This document shows, in pieces, positions 5,164 through 22,773 of a DNA stretch of 64,000 nt. The notes below the pieces were generated by a model that was not told where the DNA came from, did not search any database, and was given only the letters and a program-made list of their open reading frames with translations. Each line of letters opens with the position of its first letter. The first letter of the stretch is position 1. The translations under genes and the position numbers were made by a program. Source of the stretch: Hyphomicrobiales bacterium (GTDB taxonomy: Bacteria > Pseudomonadota > Alphaproteobacteria > Rhizobiales > Rhizobiaceae); contig UBUL01000001.1 of NCBI GenBank assembly GCA_900468625.1, positions 354,440-418,439 of the forward strand. Direction: 5' to 3'.

Positions 5164-8152
5164 TGATCCGGCCTCCTTCCTTGTCAAAGAACACCAGATC
5201 CGTCACCTCGACTGATATCGTCTTGTCGGGCATCGGCACATAGAGCGTCTTGCCCATGCGCTCGCGCCCGCCGGCAACCAGCGCGAAGGCGATGGAGCGG
5301 CCGAGATTTTCGGACCAGTAGGCCGAAGTGACATGGCCGAGCATGGTCATCGGTTTCGGCTCATTGGGATCGGCGACGATCTGCGCGCCTTCCTCCAGCA
5401 CCATCTTCGGATCGCGGGTGACGAGACCGACGAGCTGCTTGCGCCCTTCCTTGACCAGATCCGGCCGCTTCAGGCCGCGAATACCGACGAAATCGGTCTT
5501 CTTCTTGGAAACGGCCCAAGCAAGACCGGCATCCTCGGGCGTGACCGTGCCGTCGGTATCCTGGCCGACGATGATGTAGCCCTTCTCGGCGCGAAGAACG
5601 TGCATGGTCTCCGTGCCGTAGGCGCAGGCGCCCAGCGGTTCGGCGCGAGCCCAGACGGCTTCCCATACCGACTGGCCGTAGTCGGCCGGTACGTTGATTT
5701 CGTAGCCGACTTCACCGGTGAAGGAGACGCGAAACAGCCGTGCCGGCACGCCGCAGACCTTGCACTCGGCCACGCTCATATGCGGGAAGGCTTCGTTGGA
5801 CAAATCCTGGCCCTCGACGAGCGGCTCGATGATCTCGCGCGCCTTCGGCCCCTGCACGGCGATAACAGCCCATTGCTCGGTAGTCGAGGTCAGCCAGACC
5901 TTCAGATGCGGGAACTCGGTCTGCAGATAGTCTTCCATATGATGCAGCACGCGCGGCGCGCCGCCGGTCGTGGTGGTCACATGGAAACGATCCTCGGCCA
6001 GGCGTCCGACGACGCCGTCGTCATAAACGAAACCGTCCTCGCGGGTCATGATGCCGTAGCGGCACCGGCCGGGCTTCAGCGTATCCCAGGCATTGGTGTA
6101 GATCAAATTCAGGAACTCGGCCGCATCCGGCCCGACCACTTCGATCTTGCCGAGCGTCGAGGCATCGAACACGCCGGCCACGTCGCGCGCCGTGCGGCAC
6201 TCGCGATTGACGGCCTGATGCATGGTCTCTCCGGCGCGCGGATAGAACCAGGCGCGCTTCCAGTTGCCGACATCTTCGAAGATGGCCCCATGCGCCTCTT
6301 CCCAGGCATGCATCGGCGTCTTGCGGGCGGGATCGAAGAGAGCCCCGCGCGAATGGCTGATCAGCGTGCCGTAGGTGACGGGCGTATAGGGCGCGCGGAA
6401 GGTGGTAAGACCGACCTGCGGAATATCCTTGCCGAGCATTTCGGCAGCGATCGCCAGCCCGTGCATGTTGGAAAGCTTGCCCTGGTCGGACGCCATGCCG
6501 TTGGTGGTGAAACGCTTGATATGCTCGATGGAATGCATGCCTTCGCGCACGGCGAGGCGGATATCCTTGGCGCAGACATCATGCTGGAAATCGACGAACG
6601 CTTTCGCATTCGTGTCGGGTCCGGCGCCTTCGGCGGCACCGATCATGCCGCCGGTCCATTCGAAAGCCTGCTCGGCCTGGAGCTGGATCTTCTCGCCGCC
6701 ATTGGTGCTTCCGGTGGCGCGCGCCATCAGCTCGCCAGCGGCAAGCGATTCCTCGATCGCGGCCTGCAGGCCATCCGTGCCGTTGCACGCACCGACCGAA
6801 AGGCAATCCTGAACATAGGTGCCCGGCAGGAAGCGTTGCTTCTCGGCATCGAATTTCAGCTTGCCGCGCGATTGTGAAAAGAGATGAACGGAAGGCGTCC
6901 ATCCTGCCGAAACCAGCAGCGCGTCGATCGCAATTTTGCGCTTGGCGGAACTGCCGTTGCGAGAAACCGTCATGGAGGAGACGCGCAGCTTGCCTGATGT
7001 ATCGACGACGGCATAGTCGGTCATCACCTCGATGCCGAGCCGCTTCGCCTCGGCGAGCACGGCCTCGCCGGGCCGCGCGCGGCTGTCGACGATGGCGGCA
7101 ACGGAAACGCCGGCGCGCTTGAGGTCGAAAGCGGCCTCGTAGGCCGAATCATGCGCCGTATAGACGCCGATCTTCGCGCCGACGGCAACGCCATAATGGT
7201 TGAGATAGGCGCGCGCGGCAGAGGCGAGCATGATGCCCGGACGGTCGTTGTTCGGAAACACCATGTGGCGTTCGATGGCGCCTGTCGCCAGGATGGCCCG
7301 CTTGGCGCGGACCTGCCACAGGCGTTCGCGCGGCAGATCGCGGTCCGGCCTTGCCAGATGGTCGGTCACCCGTTCGGCAAGACCGAAGAAATTGTGATTG
7401 TAGTAGCCGAAGGCGGTCGTGCGGGTCAGTACCTGCACGTTCGCCATTGCCGTGAGCTTGGCGAGGATAGCCTGCGCCCAGTCATAGCCCCCGACGCCGT
7501 CGATCTTGATGCCGGTGTCGAAACGCAGCGCGCCGCCGACTTCCGGCTGCTCGTCGCAGAGGATGACCTTGGCGCCAGTTTCGGCAGCGGCGAGTGCTGC
7601 GGAAAGGCCGGCAATGCCGGCACCGACGACAAGCACGTCGCAATGGGCGTAACGGCTGGCATAGTGATCCGGATCCTCTTCCGTCGGCGCGACGCCGAGG
7701 CCGGCGGCACGGCGGATGAAGGGCTCGTAAATGTGCTTCCAGGCCGACTTCGGCCACATGAAGGTCTTGTAATAGAAGCCGGCGGCAAAGAACGGTGACA
7801 TCAGATTGTTGACGCCGCCGATATCGAAGGCGAGCGACGGCCAGCGGTTCTGCGACTGAGCCTTCATGCCGTCGAAGACCTCCTGCACGCTGGCACGCAC
7901 GTTCGGCTGCCGCCGCGCCGCATCGCGGGAGATATCGAGCAGTGCATTCGGCTCTTCGGCTCCCGCCGACAGGATGCCGCGCGGACGGTGGTACTTGAAG
8001 GACCGGCCGACGAGATGGACGCCGTTGGCAAGCAGCGCCGAGGCGACGGTATCGCCTTCGAGCGCGGTATAGGTCTTGCCGTCAAAAGTGAAGCGAGCGG
8101 TTCTGGCCGGCGTCAGACGACCCTTGCCCGCGATACGATTGGCGCCGCTCAT
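5156..8152 (-). CDS. soxA: Sarcosine oxidase alpha subunit
   Basis: This 998-residue subunit binds NAD+ and tetrahydrofolate. The heterotetramer oxidises sarcosine (N-methylglycine) to glycine and passes the methyl carbon to folate, as in glycine betaine breakdown. In order, it has an N-terminal ferredoxin-like domain (about 20-100, 'TALEGDTVASALLANG'), a Rossmann dinucleotide domain with 'GAGIAG' at 177-182, and a C-terminal aminomethyltransferase-like half (about 600-998, 'MHVLRAEKGYIIVGQDTDGT'). The length is typical. Its ATG overlaps the soxD stop as ATGA, so translation is coupled. These sox genes are not the thiosulfate-oxidising Sox system. Confidence 0.97.
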   Translation of the reverse strand: MSGANRIAGKGRLTPARTARFTFDGKTYTALEGDTVASALLANGVHLVGRSFKYHRPRGILSAGAEEPNALLDISRDAARRQPNVRASVQEVFDGMKAQSQNRWPSLAFDIGGVNNLMSPFFAAGFYYKTFMWPKSAWKHIYEPFIRRAAGLGVAPTEEDPDHYASRYAHCDVLVVGAGIAGLSAALAAAETGAKVILCDEQPEVGGALRFDTGIKIDGVGGYDWAQAILAKLTAMANVQVLTRTTAFGYYNHNFFGLAERVTDHLARPDRDLPRERLWQVRAKRAILATGAIERHMVFPNNDRPGIMLASAARAYLNHYGVAVGAKIGVYTAHDSAYEAAFDLKRAGVSVAAIVDSRARPGEAVLAEAKRLGIEVMTDYAVVDTSGKLRVSSMTVSRNGSSAKRKIAIDALLVSAGWTPSVHLFSQSRGKLKFDAEKQRFLPGTYVQDCLSVGACNGTDGLQAAIEESLAAGELMARATGSTNGGEKIQLQAEQAFEWTGGMIGAAEGAGPDTNAKAFVDFQHDVCAKDIRLAVREGMHSIEHIKRFTTNGMASDQGKLSNMHGLAIAAEMLGKDIPQVGLTTFRAPYTPVTYGTLISHSRGALFDPARKTPMHAWEEAHGAIFEDVGNWKRAWFYPRAGETMHQAVNRECRTARDVAGVFDASTLGKIEVVGPDAAEFLNLIYTNAWDTLKPGRCRYGIMTREDGFVYDDGVVGRLAEDRFHVTTTTGGAPRVLHHMEDYLQTEFPHLKVWLTSTTEQWAVIAVQGPKAREIIEPLVEGQDLSNEAFPHMSVAECKVCGVPARLFRVSFTGEVGYEINVPADYGQSVWEAVWARAEPLGACAYGTETMHVLRAEKGYIIVGQDTDGTVTPEDAGLAWAVSKKKTDFVGIRGLKRPDLVKEGRKQLVGLVTRDPKMVLEEGAQIVADPNEPKPMTMLGHVTSAYWSENLGRSIAFALVAGGRERMGKTLYVPMPDKTISVEVTDLVFFDKEGGRING

Positions 8153-17251: not shown

Positions 17252-18424
17252 TCAGAGATCTCCCTTCTTGATCGTCGGCTGGTCGGGATCGACGAAATTC
17301 GGGTTCACGACCTCGCCGCCGTCGGTCAGCATCGTCGCCTTGATCAGCTCGTCGGTGCGGTTGAGGCCGAGGCTCTTCGTATCCTTGTCGACCATCGTCT
17401 CCAGGAAGGTGACGAGGTTCTTGGCATAGAGAGCCGATGCACTTGCCGCGATCCGGCCGGCCATATTGGGATAGCCGACCACCCTGACGCCTTCTACCTC
17501 GGCGATCTTGCCGTATTCCGCACCCTCGATATTGCCGCCACGCTCGACAGCAAGATCGACGGCGACCGCACCGGGACGCATCGCTTTCAGCATATCGCGG
17601 CTGACGAGACGCGGCGCCGGCCGGCCGGGTATCAGCGCCGTGGTGATGACGATATCCTGCTTGGCGATATGATCGGCAACGAGTGCTGCCTGCTTGACCT
17701 GATATTCCCTCGACATTTCCTTGGCGTAGCCGCCGGCGGTCTCCGCCGCCTTGAACTCCTCGTCCTCGACAGCGACGAATTTCGCGCCGAGCGAGGCGAC
17801 CTGTTCCTTGGCCGCCGGGCGCACATCCGTCGCGGAGACCAGAGCGCCGAGACGCCGTGCCGTGGCGATCGCCTGCAGGCCGGCAACGCCGGCGCCCATG
17901 ACGAACACCTTTGCCGCCGGCACGGTGCCGGCCGCCGTCATCATCATCGGCAGCGCCCGGTCATAGACCGCCGCAGCCTCGATGACGGCTTGATATCCCG
18001 CAAGATTGGCCTGCGACGAGAGGACATCCATCGATTGCGCGCGCGTGATACGCGGCATCAGCTCCATGGCAAAGCTCGTGAGCCCTGCCCGCGCCATCTC
18101 CGCAAGTGCCGCCTCGTTGCCATAGGGGTCCATGATGGCGATGACGATCGCGCCGCTCTTGTAACCGGCGATCTCCTTAGTCGTCGGCCGCCTGACCTTG
18201 AGCACGACATCGGCCGCCTTTGCATCCTTGACGGAGCCGATCCTTGCACCGACGGCTTGATACTCGGCATCCGGGATACGCGACAAAGTGCCCGCGCCGG
18301 CTTCGATCACGACATCGAAACCGAAGCTCCTCATCTTCTTTACCGTCTCCGCCGAGGCCGCAACACGCGTCTCCTCAGCCACGCTTTCCTTGGCCACGAA
18401 AACCAGATTGCTCAACGACAACAC
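17252..18424 (-). CDS. pntA1: NAD(P) transhydrogenase subunit alpha, part 1 (NAD-binding)
   Basis: This roughly 390-residue soluble domain I binds NAD(H). The Rossmann motif 'GAGVAG' is at 177-182. The 'RAQSMDVLSSQAN' loop typical of transhydrogenase domain I (the RQD-loop region) lies near residues 128-140. The start is uncertain: a GTG at 18424 is embedded in GAGG, and that same GAGG would be a good ribosome site for a TTG at 18415. It is the first gene of the pntA1-pntA2-pntB operon. The gene upstream on the same strand encodes aa3 oxidase subunit IV. Confidence 0.95.
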   Translation of the reverse strand: MLSLSNLVFVAKESVAEETRVAASAETVKKMRSFGFDVVIEAGAGTLSRIPDAEYQAVGARIGSVKDAKAADVVLKVRRPTTKEIAGYKSGAIVIAIMDPYGNEAALAEMARAGLTSFAMELMPRITRAQSMDVLSSQANLAGYQAVIEAAAVYDRALPMMMTAAGTVPAAKVFVMGAGVAGLQAIATARRLGALVSATDVRPAAKEQVASLGAKFVAVEDEEFKAAETAGGYAKEMSREYQVKQAALVADHIAKQDIVITTALIPGRPAPRLVSRDMLKAMRPGAVAVDLAVERGGNIEGAEYGKIAEVEGVRVVGYPNMAGRIAASASALYAKNLVTFLETMVDKDTKSLGLNRTDELIKATMLTDGGEVVNPNFVDPDQPTIKKGDL

Positions 18425-18751: not shown

Positions 18752-18934
18752 TCAGAATTCTCCCCTCGATCCTCTCCTCCGGCAGACGACATCGACTGGC
18801 GGCTGGAGTTCGCCCTCAAAAGTCGCGGCATCCCTGAAAAAGATGCCGCAACCAAATTTCCTCCACCGAGGGGTTACACAAAGCGAGGAAAAATGCAATG
18901 CACGACAAGGTCGCACGGATGCGCAGCCAGAGCA

Positions 18935-19040
18935 GGATGCCGAAAAACGTGATCGTTTTTCGGGCGACATCATATTCTACTTCTTTGATTCTAAAGCGGA
19001 TTCAGATGTCAGGCCGAACAGACCTGACATCATCCCGCTC
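18935..19040. repeat. Intergenic repeat, family B (left copy)
   Basis: This element contains GATGCCGAAAAACGTGATCG, then TCTACTTCTTTGATTCTAAAG and GTCAGGCCGAACAGACCTGAC. Its reverse complement recurs, diverged, at 20160-20260, so the two copies stand in inverted orientation on either side of the FeeM-like gene. The rest of the gap 18752-18934 shows no gene. Confidence 0.8.
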
Positions 19041-19143
19041 TAAAGCAATTCCCGGAAAAATGCGCAGTGGTTTTCCGTCCGGAATTGCGTAAAGACAAAG
19101 AGATAGAGCAGTCAAGAGATTCCGTGAAAACAGAACCGCTCTA
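19041..19143. repeat. Intergenic repeat, family A (second copy)
   Basis: It begins with AATTCCCGGAAAAATGCG and continues with GGTTTTCCGTCCGGAATTG, as in the copies at 13419 and 30934. It ends at the stop codon of the FeeM-like gene and may act as its 3' hairpin. Confidence 0.75.
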
Positions 19144-19896
19144 GCCGAATTGCCCGCGGATTTCGCGCCGGTCGCCGCTTGCCGACCGCGCGGTCGGCAG
19201 AATGGTCAGCGGCGGCGAGCCCATATCTTCCCCGCGGTAAAACATCATGCGCCGTTCATAGGGCTCCGAATCGAAGAACGGGTACCGTTTCATCAGCTTG
19301 CCGCGGATCTCCTTCGAACGGGACGCCAGCAGCGTCAGCTCGAAACCATAGGTCTTGGTCATCCGCGGCGGTACGATCGTATCGGCATAAAAGACGCGCT
19401 TGTAAAAAGCCGCGTGCGCAGGACGGATATGCTGCATCACCCGATCCGTATCGAAGTAGATGGCGCCGACGATCGCCGGCCGCAGCGTCAGATAGGGCAA
19501 TGCCGGCAAATCCAACTCGAAGTCCGGATCGACGGCAAAGCGCGCCGGATCGATCAGAGTCATCCCGGCATCGAGAAAGGCGTGTATCTCGTCCGGAAAG
19601 ATGCCGGTCGATTGGCATACGCGATGATCCGGCGTGACGTGATGTATTCGCACGGTACTCACCAGCTGCTCGAAGTAGTAGACCCCGAAGACAAAGGCAT
19701 GGTCATCGAAGTCGACATCATCGATCAGATTTTTCGCCGCCACCGGCAGGACGTCGCGCGTCTTGTAAGCCTTGTACCGCAGGCGCGCGACATCCTCCAT
19801 GTCTTCGCTGCTTTCGATTCGGCGGTATTCTACGTTATCGAGCACCGCCATCAGCTTGCCGGCAAAGCTGTCTTGCAAAGTACCCACATGTGTCAT
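19141..19896 (-). CDS. FeeM-like N-acyl amino acid synthase (GNAT fold)
   Basis: This 251-residue protein resembles the FeeM / autoinducer-synthase branch of the GNAT fold, enzymes that transfer a fatty acyl chain from acyl-ACP to an amino acid or related amine. Visible family features are 'EDVARLRYKAYKTRDVLP' (about residues 34-51), 'LIDPARFAVDPDFE' (about 113-127), and 'PYLTLRPAIVGAIYFD...AFYKRVFYADTIVPPR'. It could instead be an acyl-homoserine lactone synthase-like enzyme of unknown product; no LuxR gene is nearby. The ATG at 19896 is preceded by GGAACC. The gene is solitary, with an AT-rich upstream region holding repeated TTAACC sites and with inverted repeats on both sides. Confidence 0.65.
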   Translation of the reverse strand: MTHVGTLQDSFAGKLMAVLDNVEYRRIESSEDMEDVARLRYKAYKTRDVLPVAAKNLIDDVDFDDHAFVFGVYYFEQLVSTVRIHHVTPDHRVCQSTGIFPDEIHAFLDAGMTLIDPARFAVDPDFELDLPALPYLTLRPAIVGAIYFDTDRVMQHIRPAHAAFYKRVFYADTIVPPRMTKTYGFELTLLASRSKEIRGKLMKRYPFFDSEPYERRMMFYRGEDMGSPPLTILPTARSASGDRREIRGQFG

Positions 19897-19998
19897 GGTT
19901 AAGGTTCCGTAATGGTTAACGGATCATTATTGGTATTAACGGAAGATTTGATCAATATTTTATTTACTTTTTAATAGCTATTTATTCGCTATGGTTAA
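19895..19998 (-). promoter_or_regulatory. AT-rich promoter with three TTAACCAT (CtrA-like) sites
   Basis: On the minus strand TTAACCAT occurs at 19902-19895 (running into the start codon), 19919-19912 and 19998-19991. TTAACCAT is a known form of the CtrA recognition site of alphaproteobacteria. The stretch 19920-20000 is strikingly AT-rich against the window's background. Binding by CtrA is inferred, not shown. Confidence 0.5.
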
Positions 19999-20159
19999 TT
20001 TTTTTAACGAATACCGGTATAGGTCCGGCGCGCTTGAGAAAACGCTCGGGCTTTCGTTGCTGTGAAGCGGGAAGCTTGCAGATTTGTCCGACTGTTTCGC
20101 CCGAACAAAGCGAACACGGATTTATGCGTTACGACGCCTGCAAGCACGAGAGCCGGATG

Positions 20160-20260
20160 ATTTCAGTCTGTTCGGCCTGAAATCTGAATCCGCTCTGGAA
20201 TCAAAGAAGTAGAGCATGATGTCATCCGAAAGCCGATCACACTTTTCGGCATCATGCTCT
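20160..20260. repeat. Intergenic repeat, family B (right, inverted copy)
   Basis: It reads CTGTTCGGCCTGAAATCTGA, then GAATCAAAGAAGTAGAGCATG and AAAGCCGATCACACTTTTCG, the reverse complement of the element at 18935-19040 with scattered differences. No gene is seen in 19999-20469. Confidence 0.8.
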
Positions 20261-20362
20261 GAAGCGCGCCGCGATCTTTCAGATTCGCTTCCTGCGCCCT
20301 GGTCTCGGATTTCACGCATGTCCTGATCGCAAAACCGCTGAACAATTCTACGCGACATGCTT
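20261..20362. repeat. Intergenic repeat, family C
   Basis: It reads AAGCGCGCCGCGATCTTTCAG, then ATTCGCTTCCTGCGCCC, ACGCATGTCCTGATCGCAAAA and CGCGACATGCTTC. A close second copy in the same orientation lies at 42650-42757. Confidence 0.75.
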
Positions 20363-20469: not shown

Positions 20470-22773
20470 TCAGGCGACGTGATCCTGCCGCACGCCCGGC
20501 AGGCGCCGGCCGAGGCTCTCCACCATCTCCGCCACCTGCTCCCGCGACACGGGCGCCGAGAACACATAACCCTGGATGATATCGGCCAGATTCTTCTCGA
20601 CGACGAGTGCCAGTTGCTCCAGCGTCTCGACACCCTCGATCACGATATGGAGGCTGAGCGCACGGGAAAGATCGACAATGCCGCACAGCAGCTTGAAACG
20701 GCGGCTGTCCGTCGTAATGTCGCGAACGAAAGACCGATCGATCTTGACGACATCCACAGGCAGGGAATCGAGATAGCTGAGGCTGGAAAAACCCGTTCCG
20801 AAATCGTCGATCGCAATCGTGATGCCTTTGGCGCGCAGATCGGCGAGTATGGACCGGACGGTTGCCACCTCATCCATCAGGCAGCTTTCGGTAACCTCGA
20901 GATGAAGCCGCGAAGGCGCCAACCCCGACGCTTCGAGTGCCTGCACGACGATGCCGACGATATTGTCGCTGCGCAGATCCTGCGCCGAGAGGTTCACTGA
21001 GACGGCAAGCGGCGCCGGCCATGAGGCGCAGTCCCGGCAGGCCTGATTGATCATGAAACGGGTGATGCCGGCCACGATGCCCATCTCCTCGGCGATCTGC
21101 ACGAAGATATTGGGCGGGATGGAGCCCTTTTCCGGATGAATCCAGCGCGCCAATGCCTCGCAGCAGTCGATGCGGGAGCCATCTGGCGTGAACATCGGCT
21201 GATAAACGGCGTGCAGCCTGCCGGCTTCAACCGCTTCGCGCAAATCATCCTTCAGCTTCTGGCGCTCGACATAACGCGCATCCATCTCCTGCTCGAATGC
21301 GCTGCAGCCGCCCTTCATCCGGGATTTGGCGTCGAACAACGCCAGATCGACCTTGATCTGCCATTCCTCCGGACGGAATTCCCGGCTCGACATCGTCACA
21401 TATCCGCCGCTGGCGGAAATCCGGAAGCTGTAGTCGTCGACGTCGTAAGTCCCCGTCATCGCCGCATGCAGCGCGCGGATACGGCCGTCGATGTCCGTGG
21501 CATTGTCCTCGCTGGGAAAGAACAGCACGAATTGATCGCCGACAAGACGGGCCGCCAATGCCGCAGTACCGGCAAGCCCTTTCAGGCGCTCGGCGATGGC
21601 GACCAGCAGGCGGTCTCCGGCCACATGCCCCTTGGTATCGTTGACGTGCTTGAAGTCGTCGACATCGAGAACCAGAATTCCGATCCGGCTTTCCCGGGGA
21701 AGCGCTGCGAGCCTTTCCTTGACCAGATCGATGAAATACTCCCGGTTCGGCAATCCCGTCAAAGGATCGTAGCGCACCATATGCAGGATCTTGCGTTCCG
21801 CCCGGATGCGCACGGTCACATCCTCAAAGATCAGGATGACGATCCCATCGGCGCGGCGGCTGGCCGAAAACTCGAGGAACTGGTCCTCGTTGAACTGTAT
21901 GAGGGTGCGCGAAAGCGTGCCGCTGACGAGTTGCGCCATCTGTCGCTGGATGAGACCGGGCAAAGACCCGTCGATGAAGGCATGGCGGGCACCATAGCGC
22001 AGGACGACATCGAACTCGCAGTCCCTGAGCTGCTCGGGATGCGCGAAATTCAAAAGTTCGCATGCCTTGCGATTGACGACGAGAATGCGATTGTGAGCAT
22101 CCAGCATGAACAGGCCGTGCGTCATGTTGTTGAGCGCGGTATCGAACCTGTCGGCGATCAAGGATATCTCACGCGACGCAATGACATTCTTGTAGAGGAA
22201 TTCGCGCACGCCGTTCGCCATCGCACGCGTCGTCAGCCCGAACGGAACGAGCATGATGGAAACGATTGCCTTGTAGAGCTGCTGCGACATGAGACAGGCG
22301 ATGATGATCGGCAGGCAACAGGCAAGCGTCTGCAGGTCGATAGCCTTCTGCGAACCGTAGTTTCGGCCGACGATCGACACCATCGAAGCCATGGTGACGG
22401 CAATGCAGATGAATTCCGCCAGCGGATCCTGCACGATCAGGATAGCGTAGCCGCTGCCGATACCAAGAATGGCTGCCGTCGCCGCCGCGCCGATAACATA
22501 GCGTGTTTCCCACTCGGCGATGTCGGCCCGCGTGAAACTGTGCTTGTCGGCCGCGTCGAACAGCCTGAACGAATACATGCGCAAGCAGAAAACGGCGCCG
22601 AAAGCGACGCAAAGCAGGAGATAGATATTCGCGCCTGTGCTCAGGAAAACGATGACATAAGTCAGAATGTGAACGAACACCCCCGTAAAAAGCGTTTTAC
22701 GGTTTCCGAAAAGCGAACTGACGAACGACAGATAAACATCCGTCGGCACGGTGTCCGGGCTTGGAGGCTTCAT
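20470..22773 (-). CDS. Membrane EAL phosphodiesterase with degenerate GGDEF domain
   Basis: This 767-residue protein has an N-terminal membrane module of about five helices (roughly 25-195), a PAS-like segment (about 215-325), GGDEF (about 340-500) and EAL (about 515-755). The GGDEF signature is degraded to 'VGDQF' (411-415), so cyclase activity is unlikely. The EAL domain keeps 'EAL' (539-541), 'NLSAQDL', 'EVTES', 'DDFGTGFSS', 'KIDRSF' and 'EGVET', so it probably hydrolyses cyclic di-GMP, perhaps controlled by GTP bound to the inactive GGDEF. The ATG at 22773 has a GGGGAAG site. It stands alone, with a TGTAAACGTTTTAA motif upstream at 22806. Confidence 0.9.
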   Translation of the reverse strand: MKPPSPDTVPTDVYLSFVSSLFGNRKTLFTGVFVHILTYVIVFLSTGANIYLLLCVAFGAVFCLRMYSFRLFDAADKHSFTRADIAEWETRYVIGAAATAAILGIGSGYAILIVQDPLAEFICIAVTMASMVSIVGRNYGSQKAIDLQTLACCLPIIIACLMSQQLYKAIVSIMLVPFGLTTRAMANGVREFLYKNVIASREISLIADRFDTALNNMTHGLFMLDAHNRILVVNRKACELLNFAHPEQLRDCEFDVVLRYGARHAFIDGSLPGLIQRQMAQLVSGTLSRTLIQFNEDQFLEFSASRRADGIVILIFEDVTVRIRAERKILHMVRYDPLTGLPNREYFIDLVKERLAALPRESRIGILVLDVDDFKHVNDTKGHVAGDRLLVAIAERLKGLAGTAALAARLVGDQFVLFFPSEDNATDIDGRIRALHAAMTGTYDVDDYSFRISASGGYVTMSSREFRPEEWQIKVDLALFDAKSRMKGGCSAFEQEMDARYVERQKLKDDLREAVEAGRLHAVYQPMFTPDGSRIDCCEALARWIHPEKGSIPPNIFVQIAEEMGIVAGITRFMINQACRDCASWPAPLAVSVNLSAQDLRSDNIVGIVVQALEASGLAPSRLHLEVTESCLMDEVATVRSILADLRAKGITIAIDDFGTGFSSLSYLDSLPVDVVKIDRSFVRDITTDSRRFKLLCGIVDLSRALSLHIVIEGVETLEQLALVVEKNLADIIQGYVFSAPVSREQVAEMVESLGRRLPGVRQDHVA

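Follow-up and report, generated by a model that had tools for sequence, protein, structure and literature searches.

The feeM-like gene in a 64,000-nucleotide stretch of DNA from a Hyphomicrobiales bacterium (the whole stretch is hereafter called the window) is not solitary, but constitutes one half of a conserved gene pair whose other half encodes a membrane c-di-GMP protein. The preliminary description of this DNA had presented the gene (19141-19896, minus strand) as standing alone; a partner gene of 767 codons at 20470-22773, on the same strand and directly upstream, adjoins it, and 103 of the 110 FeeM loci of the family lie within 6 kb of the partner's membrane domain. We propose that the two genes constitute a lipid-signalling module, in which an N-acyl amino acid would be sensed by a membrane c-di-GMP enzyme; we infer both the product and its binding, and we believe this reading about as much as we doubt it.

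The open reading frame listing gives an intact frame of 251 amino acids for the feeM-like gene, which Pfam and the structural model assign to the GNAT-fold N-acyl amino acid synthase family (PF21926). The FeeM profile scores 139 bits against a curated cut-off of 27 and is the sole Pfam family reported for the product at E up to 10, while the NCBIfam search of this product gave no match. The single sequence found no credible relative in the PDB, and a profile built from 33 homologues (A1) found just one, FeeM (2G0B, E 0.004). The predicted structure (mean pLDDT 89) points to the same protein: Foldseek places 2G0B on top (E 2e-11), and VIA-align ranks it first, with a Z of 19.2 and an rmsd of 2.6 over 180 aligned residues, followed at Z 15.1-15.2 by PaiA, a GNAT protein, and by RpaI and LasI, which are AHL synthases. 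Judged by its sequence family and its modelled fold, the gene is real and FeeM-like. The earlier assignment to the FeeM/autoinducer-synthase branch is thereby borne out, and the structural comparison proposed as its check put FeeM, and no ordinary acetyltransferase, in first place.

The product is not matched by the LuxI profile (PF00765), and the two PF00765 matches of the genome map elsewhere; together with the Pfam result and the structure ranking, this argues against a LuxI protein. When FeeM was aligned with a LuxI protein of the same genome (hhalign probability 17.5%), R40, D59, D62, R83, D116 and R119 fell opposite R25, D46, D49, R70, E100 and R103, that is, opposite what we take to be the LuxI catalytic positions (Arg, Asp, Asp, Arg, an acidic residue and Arg). 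R40, D62, R83 and R119 are invariant in the FeeM set, and D59 and D116 nearly so. Two genes for LuxI-type AHL synthases are found in this genome (G000:C52 and G000:C20, loci L236 and L237), one beside conjugation-type reading frames and the other beside a LuxR-like one, as we interpret these frames.

Upstream of feeM, the AT-rich region 19897-20056 (minus strand) is largely conserved in 24 relatives. It contains TTAACC, spaced TTAA blocks, TTGATCAA blocks and, in most of the 24 relatives, the palindrome TACCGGTATT; from the conservation of this AT-rich region, its palindrome and its TTAA-containing blocks, it is probably feeM's own promoter, which suggests that the gene is regulated. The TTAA blocks resemble CtrA-type sites, and if they are of this type, feeM would be linked to the cell cycle.

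The partner, a constant neighbour of feeM, has a 6TM-PAS-GGDEF-EAL layout according to Pfam and the structural model. Its N-terminal membrane domain (residues 1-205; 22159-22773) presents six long helices after a short one and has no reported Pfam family; this six-helix part was modelled with a pLDDT of 88.8. It is followed by a PAS domain (PF12860, residues 214-327; 21793-22134), a GGDEF domain (residues 334-487; 21313-21774) and an EAL phosphodiesterase domain (residues 509-741; 20551-21249), all encoded on the minus strand. The EAL signature motifs are intact in the window's protein and, with rare exceptions, across the 65 full-length homologues aligned (DDFGTG in 65/65, EAL in 64/65), and the GGDEF signature, canonical in 53 of these 65, is degenerate (VGDQF) in the window's clade. 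On its other side, feeM is followed by a small gene of the aa3-type cytochrome c oxidase subunit IV family (PF07835; 18527-18751, minus strand) and then, as context, by pntA, encoding the NAD(P) transhydrogenase alpha subunit according to Pfam (17252-18424, minus strand). Neither of the two genes adjoining feeM encodes an acyl carrier or a LuxR protein, as had been stated for this locus, but the membrane partner said to be missing stands immediately upstream.

Within the genus, the pair was found in all 30 loci fetched, the window's own included; these are the best matches and cover 29 of the 131 other genus genomes with a match. When the partner served as sole query against named genomes, feeM was adjacent in 67 of 80, one locus was cut by a contig end and 12 genomes had no feeM, among them Rhizobium rhizogenes NBRC 13257, R. 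multihospitium, R. hainanense and R. dioscoreae. Of the seven family loci beyond the 103 paired ones, two (in G232 and G196) lie at contig ends and one (in G182) is a second locus near a GGDEF-EAL homologue. Counted over 151 family genomes, both genes occur in 105, FeeM only in 2, the partner only in 5 and neither in 39; these are raw genome counts with no correction for kinship, from which 11 weak FeeM matches (E 7e-9 to 6e-6) and 7 weak membrane-domain matches (E 5e-26 to 5e-12) had been dropped. One of the two FeeM-only genomes, G167, has a weak domain match on another contig (E 5e-25) that remained uncounted. Across the order, a comparison made by eye gave a FeeM match at E up to 4e-25 (weaker ones being uncounted) in 44 of 249 genomes and the membrane domain (E up to 5e-41) in 40 of these 44. 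The four FeeM genomes without the domain all come from one family (f175), and 12 further genomes have the domain (E up to 1e-30) and no FeeM. At the level of the class, the Rhizobiaceae profile matched 3 of 385 genomes, one of them that of the window; the low number reflects a sampling spread across many families.

The arrangement of the two genes is conserved as well. A manual count placed the partner upstream on the same strand in 87 of 93 pairs, including L227, whose flagged overlap stems from an extended start. Over 40 family regions, pntA was present in 15, against 38 with a partner homologue; one of these regions (L151) holds no FeeM homologue, another (L165) is cut by a contig end, and in L147, L154 and L157 the partner match is fragmentary or covers GGDEF-EAL only. 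Distances in the FeeM and partner protein trees, which were built without L205 and without loci whose partner is truncated, are correlated (Mantel r 0.87, with 0 of 2000 permutations as high), and 39 of 70 splits are shared. Since both genes also follow the species tree, this correlation speaks for joint inheritance only and not, by itself, for function. Copies of the whole pair also exist on plasmids of Rhizobium tumorigenes and its relatives (L148, L149, L150 and L173), where the two genes are convergent and each enzyme, about 33% identical to that of the window, keeps its own partner; in both trees these copies cluster as a single clade, separate from the chromosomal ones. The plasmid pair of L173 is close to recombinase genes.

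Some FeeM homologues have no partner nearby, namely those of G270, G167, G206, G228, L172 and L223-226. For G270, no partner was found anywhere in the genome. L172, from the Rhizobium leguminosarum plasmid pRlX5, carries at 5989-6714 a FeeM homologue that shares about 50% identity with the enzyme of the window; its 12.6-kb region contains no partner gene, and the record has a second FeeM match. The diverged homologues L223, L224, L225 and L226, of family f175, have no partner within 14 kb. In three other loci (L140, L144 and L156), about 1.7-1.9 kb of other sequence separates partner and feeM. Finally, L204 (genome G656) had a TGA flagged inside its FeeM match, yet an open frame of 245 amino acids is present there, and the TGA is probably the edge of the match.

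The partner also persists where feeM has disappeared, and these losses provide a further view of the relation between the two genes. Sixteen Rhizobium genomes lack feeM but retain the partner as well as the genes that lie downstream, and their interval from partner to oxidase gene is just 241-299 bases, so that feeM is cleanly gone. These genomes form two groups on the partner tree, where well-supported branches force two changes: feeM was lost twice, with the partner kept, in two Rhizobium lineages. The ratio of branch length in the membrane domain to that in the rest of the partner is 0.63 for lineages keeping feeM (keepers), 2.65 for the two loss stems together and 1.24 within the lineages without it (losers). 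Taken separately, the stems reach 3.86 and 1.74; the highest keeper branch stands at 1.72 in a ranking from which branches with a rest length below 0.015 were left out, and the second stem is therefore not outstanding by itself. Reconstructed substitutions in the membrane domain and elsewhere number 41:43 on the stems against 126:434 in keepers (Fisher odds ratio 3.28, p 1.6e-6) and 142:260 in losers (odds ratio 1.88, p 1.6e-5), bearing in mind that such substitutions are incompletely independent; L145 was left out of both the ratios and the counts. As control domains on the loss stems, EAL gives an odds ratio of 1.15 (p 0.75) and GGDEF 0.50 (p 0.053); PAS shows an excess (odds ratio 2.9, p 0.013) from 9 substitutions. 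The faster evolution seen in these two lineages thus concerns the membrane domain and not EAL or GGDEF. Three replacements, L54F, Y67H and D116N, arose on both stems.

Where feeM is lost, the membrane domain also has a higher dN/dS. Each keeper group taken by itself gives a low value (0.058 and 0.049), the two compared with each other give 0.075, and the losers give 0.143 and 0.165; all comparisons with or within losers lie at 0.14-0.17. For the rest of the protein, the values are 0.065 and 0.069 within keepers, 0.086 between them, and 0.073 and 0.115 within losers (0.07-0.12 over all comparisons that involve losers), the rest of the partner being somewhat relaxed in the second loss clade. A branch-wise test of 16 loss-lineage branches against 29 keeper branches gave p 0.00024. 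Imported DNA does not explain the change, since each loss group stays inside its own clade when the membrane domain is given a free tree. The acceleration was not clearly reproduced in five further feeM-less partners of the family: a pair of them has a ratio of 0.98 on its stem and of 4.13 and 0.56 at its tips, and the three others have 1.82, 1.31 and 1.45, to be compared with a keeper median of 1.2 (48 tips, range 0.23-8.65) in a test whose tree was fixed, contained branches that are short or uncertain, and omitted tips of rest length up to 0.02. As these five partners give no clear pattern, we do not treat the coupling between membrane domain and feeM as general; it is shown for two related lineages.

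The fold of the membrane domain gives an indication of what it may sense. Foldseek found no structure below E 0.001 for the six-helix model (best E 0.69). VIA-align gave as its top four ImcA (Z 12.4), AC5 (11.9 and 11.0) and AC8 (10.1), the next match being at 8.9; the cyclase alignments extend over 197-207 residues at 7-9% sequence identity, and in AC5 and AC8 they probably cover the first membrane domain. The resemblance of the partner's modelled domain to the membrane domains of nucleotide cyclases is suggestive only, because the Z values fall below the caution line of about 13 that applies to helical bundles in VIA-align, even for the best of them at 12.4, and because Rv1625c, a bacterial cyclase for which lipid control is reported, has a Z of just 5.5. 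The partner also differs in its output domains, which are PAS-GGDEF-EAL. FeeM enzymes make N-acyl amines, the class to which anandamide belongs. Membrane domains of adenylyl cyclases are reported to be receptors for fatty acids and anandamide (PMC11606603), and ImcA, from Pseudomonas, is described as a diguanylate cyclase bearing a six-transmembrane domain (PMC10904736). For the mycobacterial cyclase Rv1625c, it is reported that C18:1 acids inhibit through the membrane domain (PMC12505454) and that the membrane anchor can be replaced by a quorum-sensing receptor (PMC4821796).

The module that we propose would work as follows. The FeeM-like enzyme, to judge from its family and fold, would join an acyl chain carried as a thioester to an amine, likeliest an amino acid, and the acylated product would then partition into the membrane. 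There it could bind to, or act through, the six-helix domain of the partner, a step for which the evolutionary coupling of the two genes argues. The signal would travel through PAS and the degenerate GGDEF to EAL, whose intact motifs are consistent with c-di-GMP being broken down, the direction of control being the presumed part; such breakdown would shift the cell between sessile and motile states. Counting against this module, the partner persists without feeM in 16 Rhizobium, 5 family and 12 order genomes, and it must have another role or ligand there. A narrower proposal is that the N-acyl amino acid made by the FeeM enzyme itself binds, as ligand, to a six-helix membrane receptor of the cyclase type through which c-di-GMP is controlled. 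This would represent an undescribed class of lipid signalling; it is possible, and we lean somewhat against it. If true, it would provide a genetically encoded cognate ligand for this fold and a bacterial parallel to the action of N-acyl ethanolamides on mammalian adenylyl cyclases. Few ligands are known for the six-helix membrane domains that cyclases and c-di-GMP enzymes carry, and feeM points to a candidate source of one, since the synthase stays beside the partner across the order and its loss was followed by change in the membrane domain in two lineages. A function would also be given to a FeeM family present in 107 of the 151 sampled genomes of Rhizobiaceae, in which one named member carries the annotation "hypothetical protein".

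Other explanations of the same observations have to be weighed against this module. Control could run in the reverse direction: the membrane c-di-GMP enzyme would control the synthase by contact or through local c-di-GMP, its transmembrane part recruiting the FeeM protein to the membrane, and the product would serve as a surfactant or surface lipid and not as a signal. Proteins with a PAS-GGDEF-EAL layout usually act as output modules, which disfavours this arrangement, and we hold it to be unlikely, even if the pairing and the membrane-domain coupling fit it just as well and RpfR is reported to bind and inhibit its synthase RpfF (PMC6361424). Slightly less credible still is that the two genes are mere long-standing neighbours in a stable chromosomal region and that the membrane domain changed by coincidence after feeM was lost. 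Their wide distribution and synteny in the genus would be expected of such neighbours, as would the existence of feeM-less partners and the absence of a clear acceleration in other lineages. Against it, the adjacency outlasts its surroundings, as seen with pntA in 15 of 40 regions, the pair holds in the reoriented plasmid copies and in several other families, and the co-occurrence table (105/2/5/39) is that of genes found together. That the gene encodes an AHL synthase, or a common acetyltransferase acting on small molecules, is improbable: the GNAT fold would fit, and PaiA, RpaI and LasI are the next structural matches, but FeeM stands 4 Z units higher and is alone in Pfam at E up to 10.

The repeats around feeM raise one more alternative, that the gene is mobilised by them as a cassette. 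Inverted copies of about 100 bases do lie on both sides, as described earlier: the left copy occupies 18928-19040 (plus strand) and the right one 20150-20261 (minus strand), and their arms, 18928-19023 and 20166-20261, are 96 nt long and 88% complementary. Both lie between genes, and repeat comparison and folding identified them as copies of an interspersed element of about 110 nt that is present in at least 40 copies in this genome (40 of 94 candidates were scored, and all 40 matched); at feeM, each copy folds into two main hairpins. A second, different interspersed element (19038-19143, plus strand; 41 genome matches) comes right after the left copy and reaches the feeM stop codon. Twenty-four close relatives that carry feeM at the corresponding position (L033-L056) were compared: none has the pair of repeats, and 4 have one copy on one side only. 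In these 24, partner and feeM are separated by 243-408 bases, against 573 in the window. The preliminary description had also considered that the pair might occupy the same spot in strains lacking the gene, and 9-kb regions from the 16 genus genomes that lack feeM yielded no copy of the element. From the many genome copies, the absence of the pair in the 24 relatives and the absence of the element in the 16 feeM-less regions, it follows that the repeats are ordinary interspersed elements, inserted later and separately, and that they do not reflect mobilisation.

The cassette explanation, which has in its favour the inverted orientation of copies on both sides of feeM, is therefore very improbable: the element is present at least 40 times in the genome, and the gene itself occurs in 132 of the 148 genomes of the genus. 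The suggestion that the repeats shelter or mobilise the gene is unsupported on the same counts. Apart from frames overlapping feeM or entering an arm, feeM is the sole reading frame of at least 80 amino acids between the arms; inspection of the frames of this length at 18928-20261 revealed no transposase, and Rfam reported no known structured RNA at the repeats up to E 1. Moreover, if all 94 first-look candidates are real, 1-2 genes per genome should be flanked on both sides by chance, a rough estimate that assumes about 6000 genes. The element resembles, and may be, RIME of Rhizobium: RIME elements are likewise short, present in many copies, about 110 nt long and provided with two palindromes or hairpin regions.

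Among the best matches in the open-licence literature, considered by title and opening lines, no FeeM gene paired with a GGDEF/EAL gene was found; the parts are known, and the combination of FeeM with a membrane GGDEF/EAL protein may be undescribed. The known FeeM (2G0B) and the window's enzyme share their Pfam family and GNAT fold, and 2G0B is the top structural match over 180 residues; they differ in sequence (17% identity) and in context, the known FeeM sitting in the fee biosynthetic cluster and the window's enzyme beside a c-di-GMP enzyme. In Nitrospira, the autoinducer synthase gene nspI stands beside a GGDEF/EAL gene, but the synthase is LuxI-type, the genes are divergent and control passes through a LuxR regulator (PMC8553950).

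The nearest working parallel to feeM and its partner is RpfF/RpfR, in that a signal-synthase-like gene adjoins a PAS-GGDEF-EAL gene. RpfF has the crotonase fold, and the feeM product, of the FeeM/GNAT type, does not belong to that family. RpfF and RpfR are described as a conserved gene pair in which the BDSF synthase is coupled to a c-di-GMP-linked receptor (PMC6361424, PMC4698668). RpfR carries an FI domain, whereas the N-terminus of the partner is modelled as a six-helix membrane domain, and the RpfF signal is a free fatty acid, whereas the feeM product, as proposed, would be an acyl amine. As the synthase families differ, and the sensing ends differ as modelled, the feeM/partner pair is not a member of the RpfF/RpfR system; by analogy, we propose that it may work in the same manner with unrelated parts.
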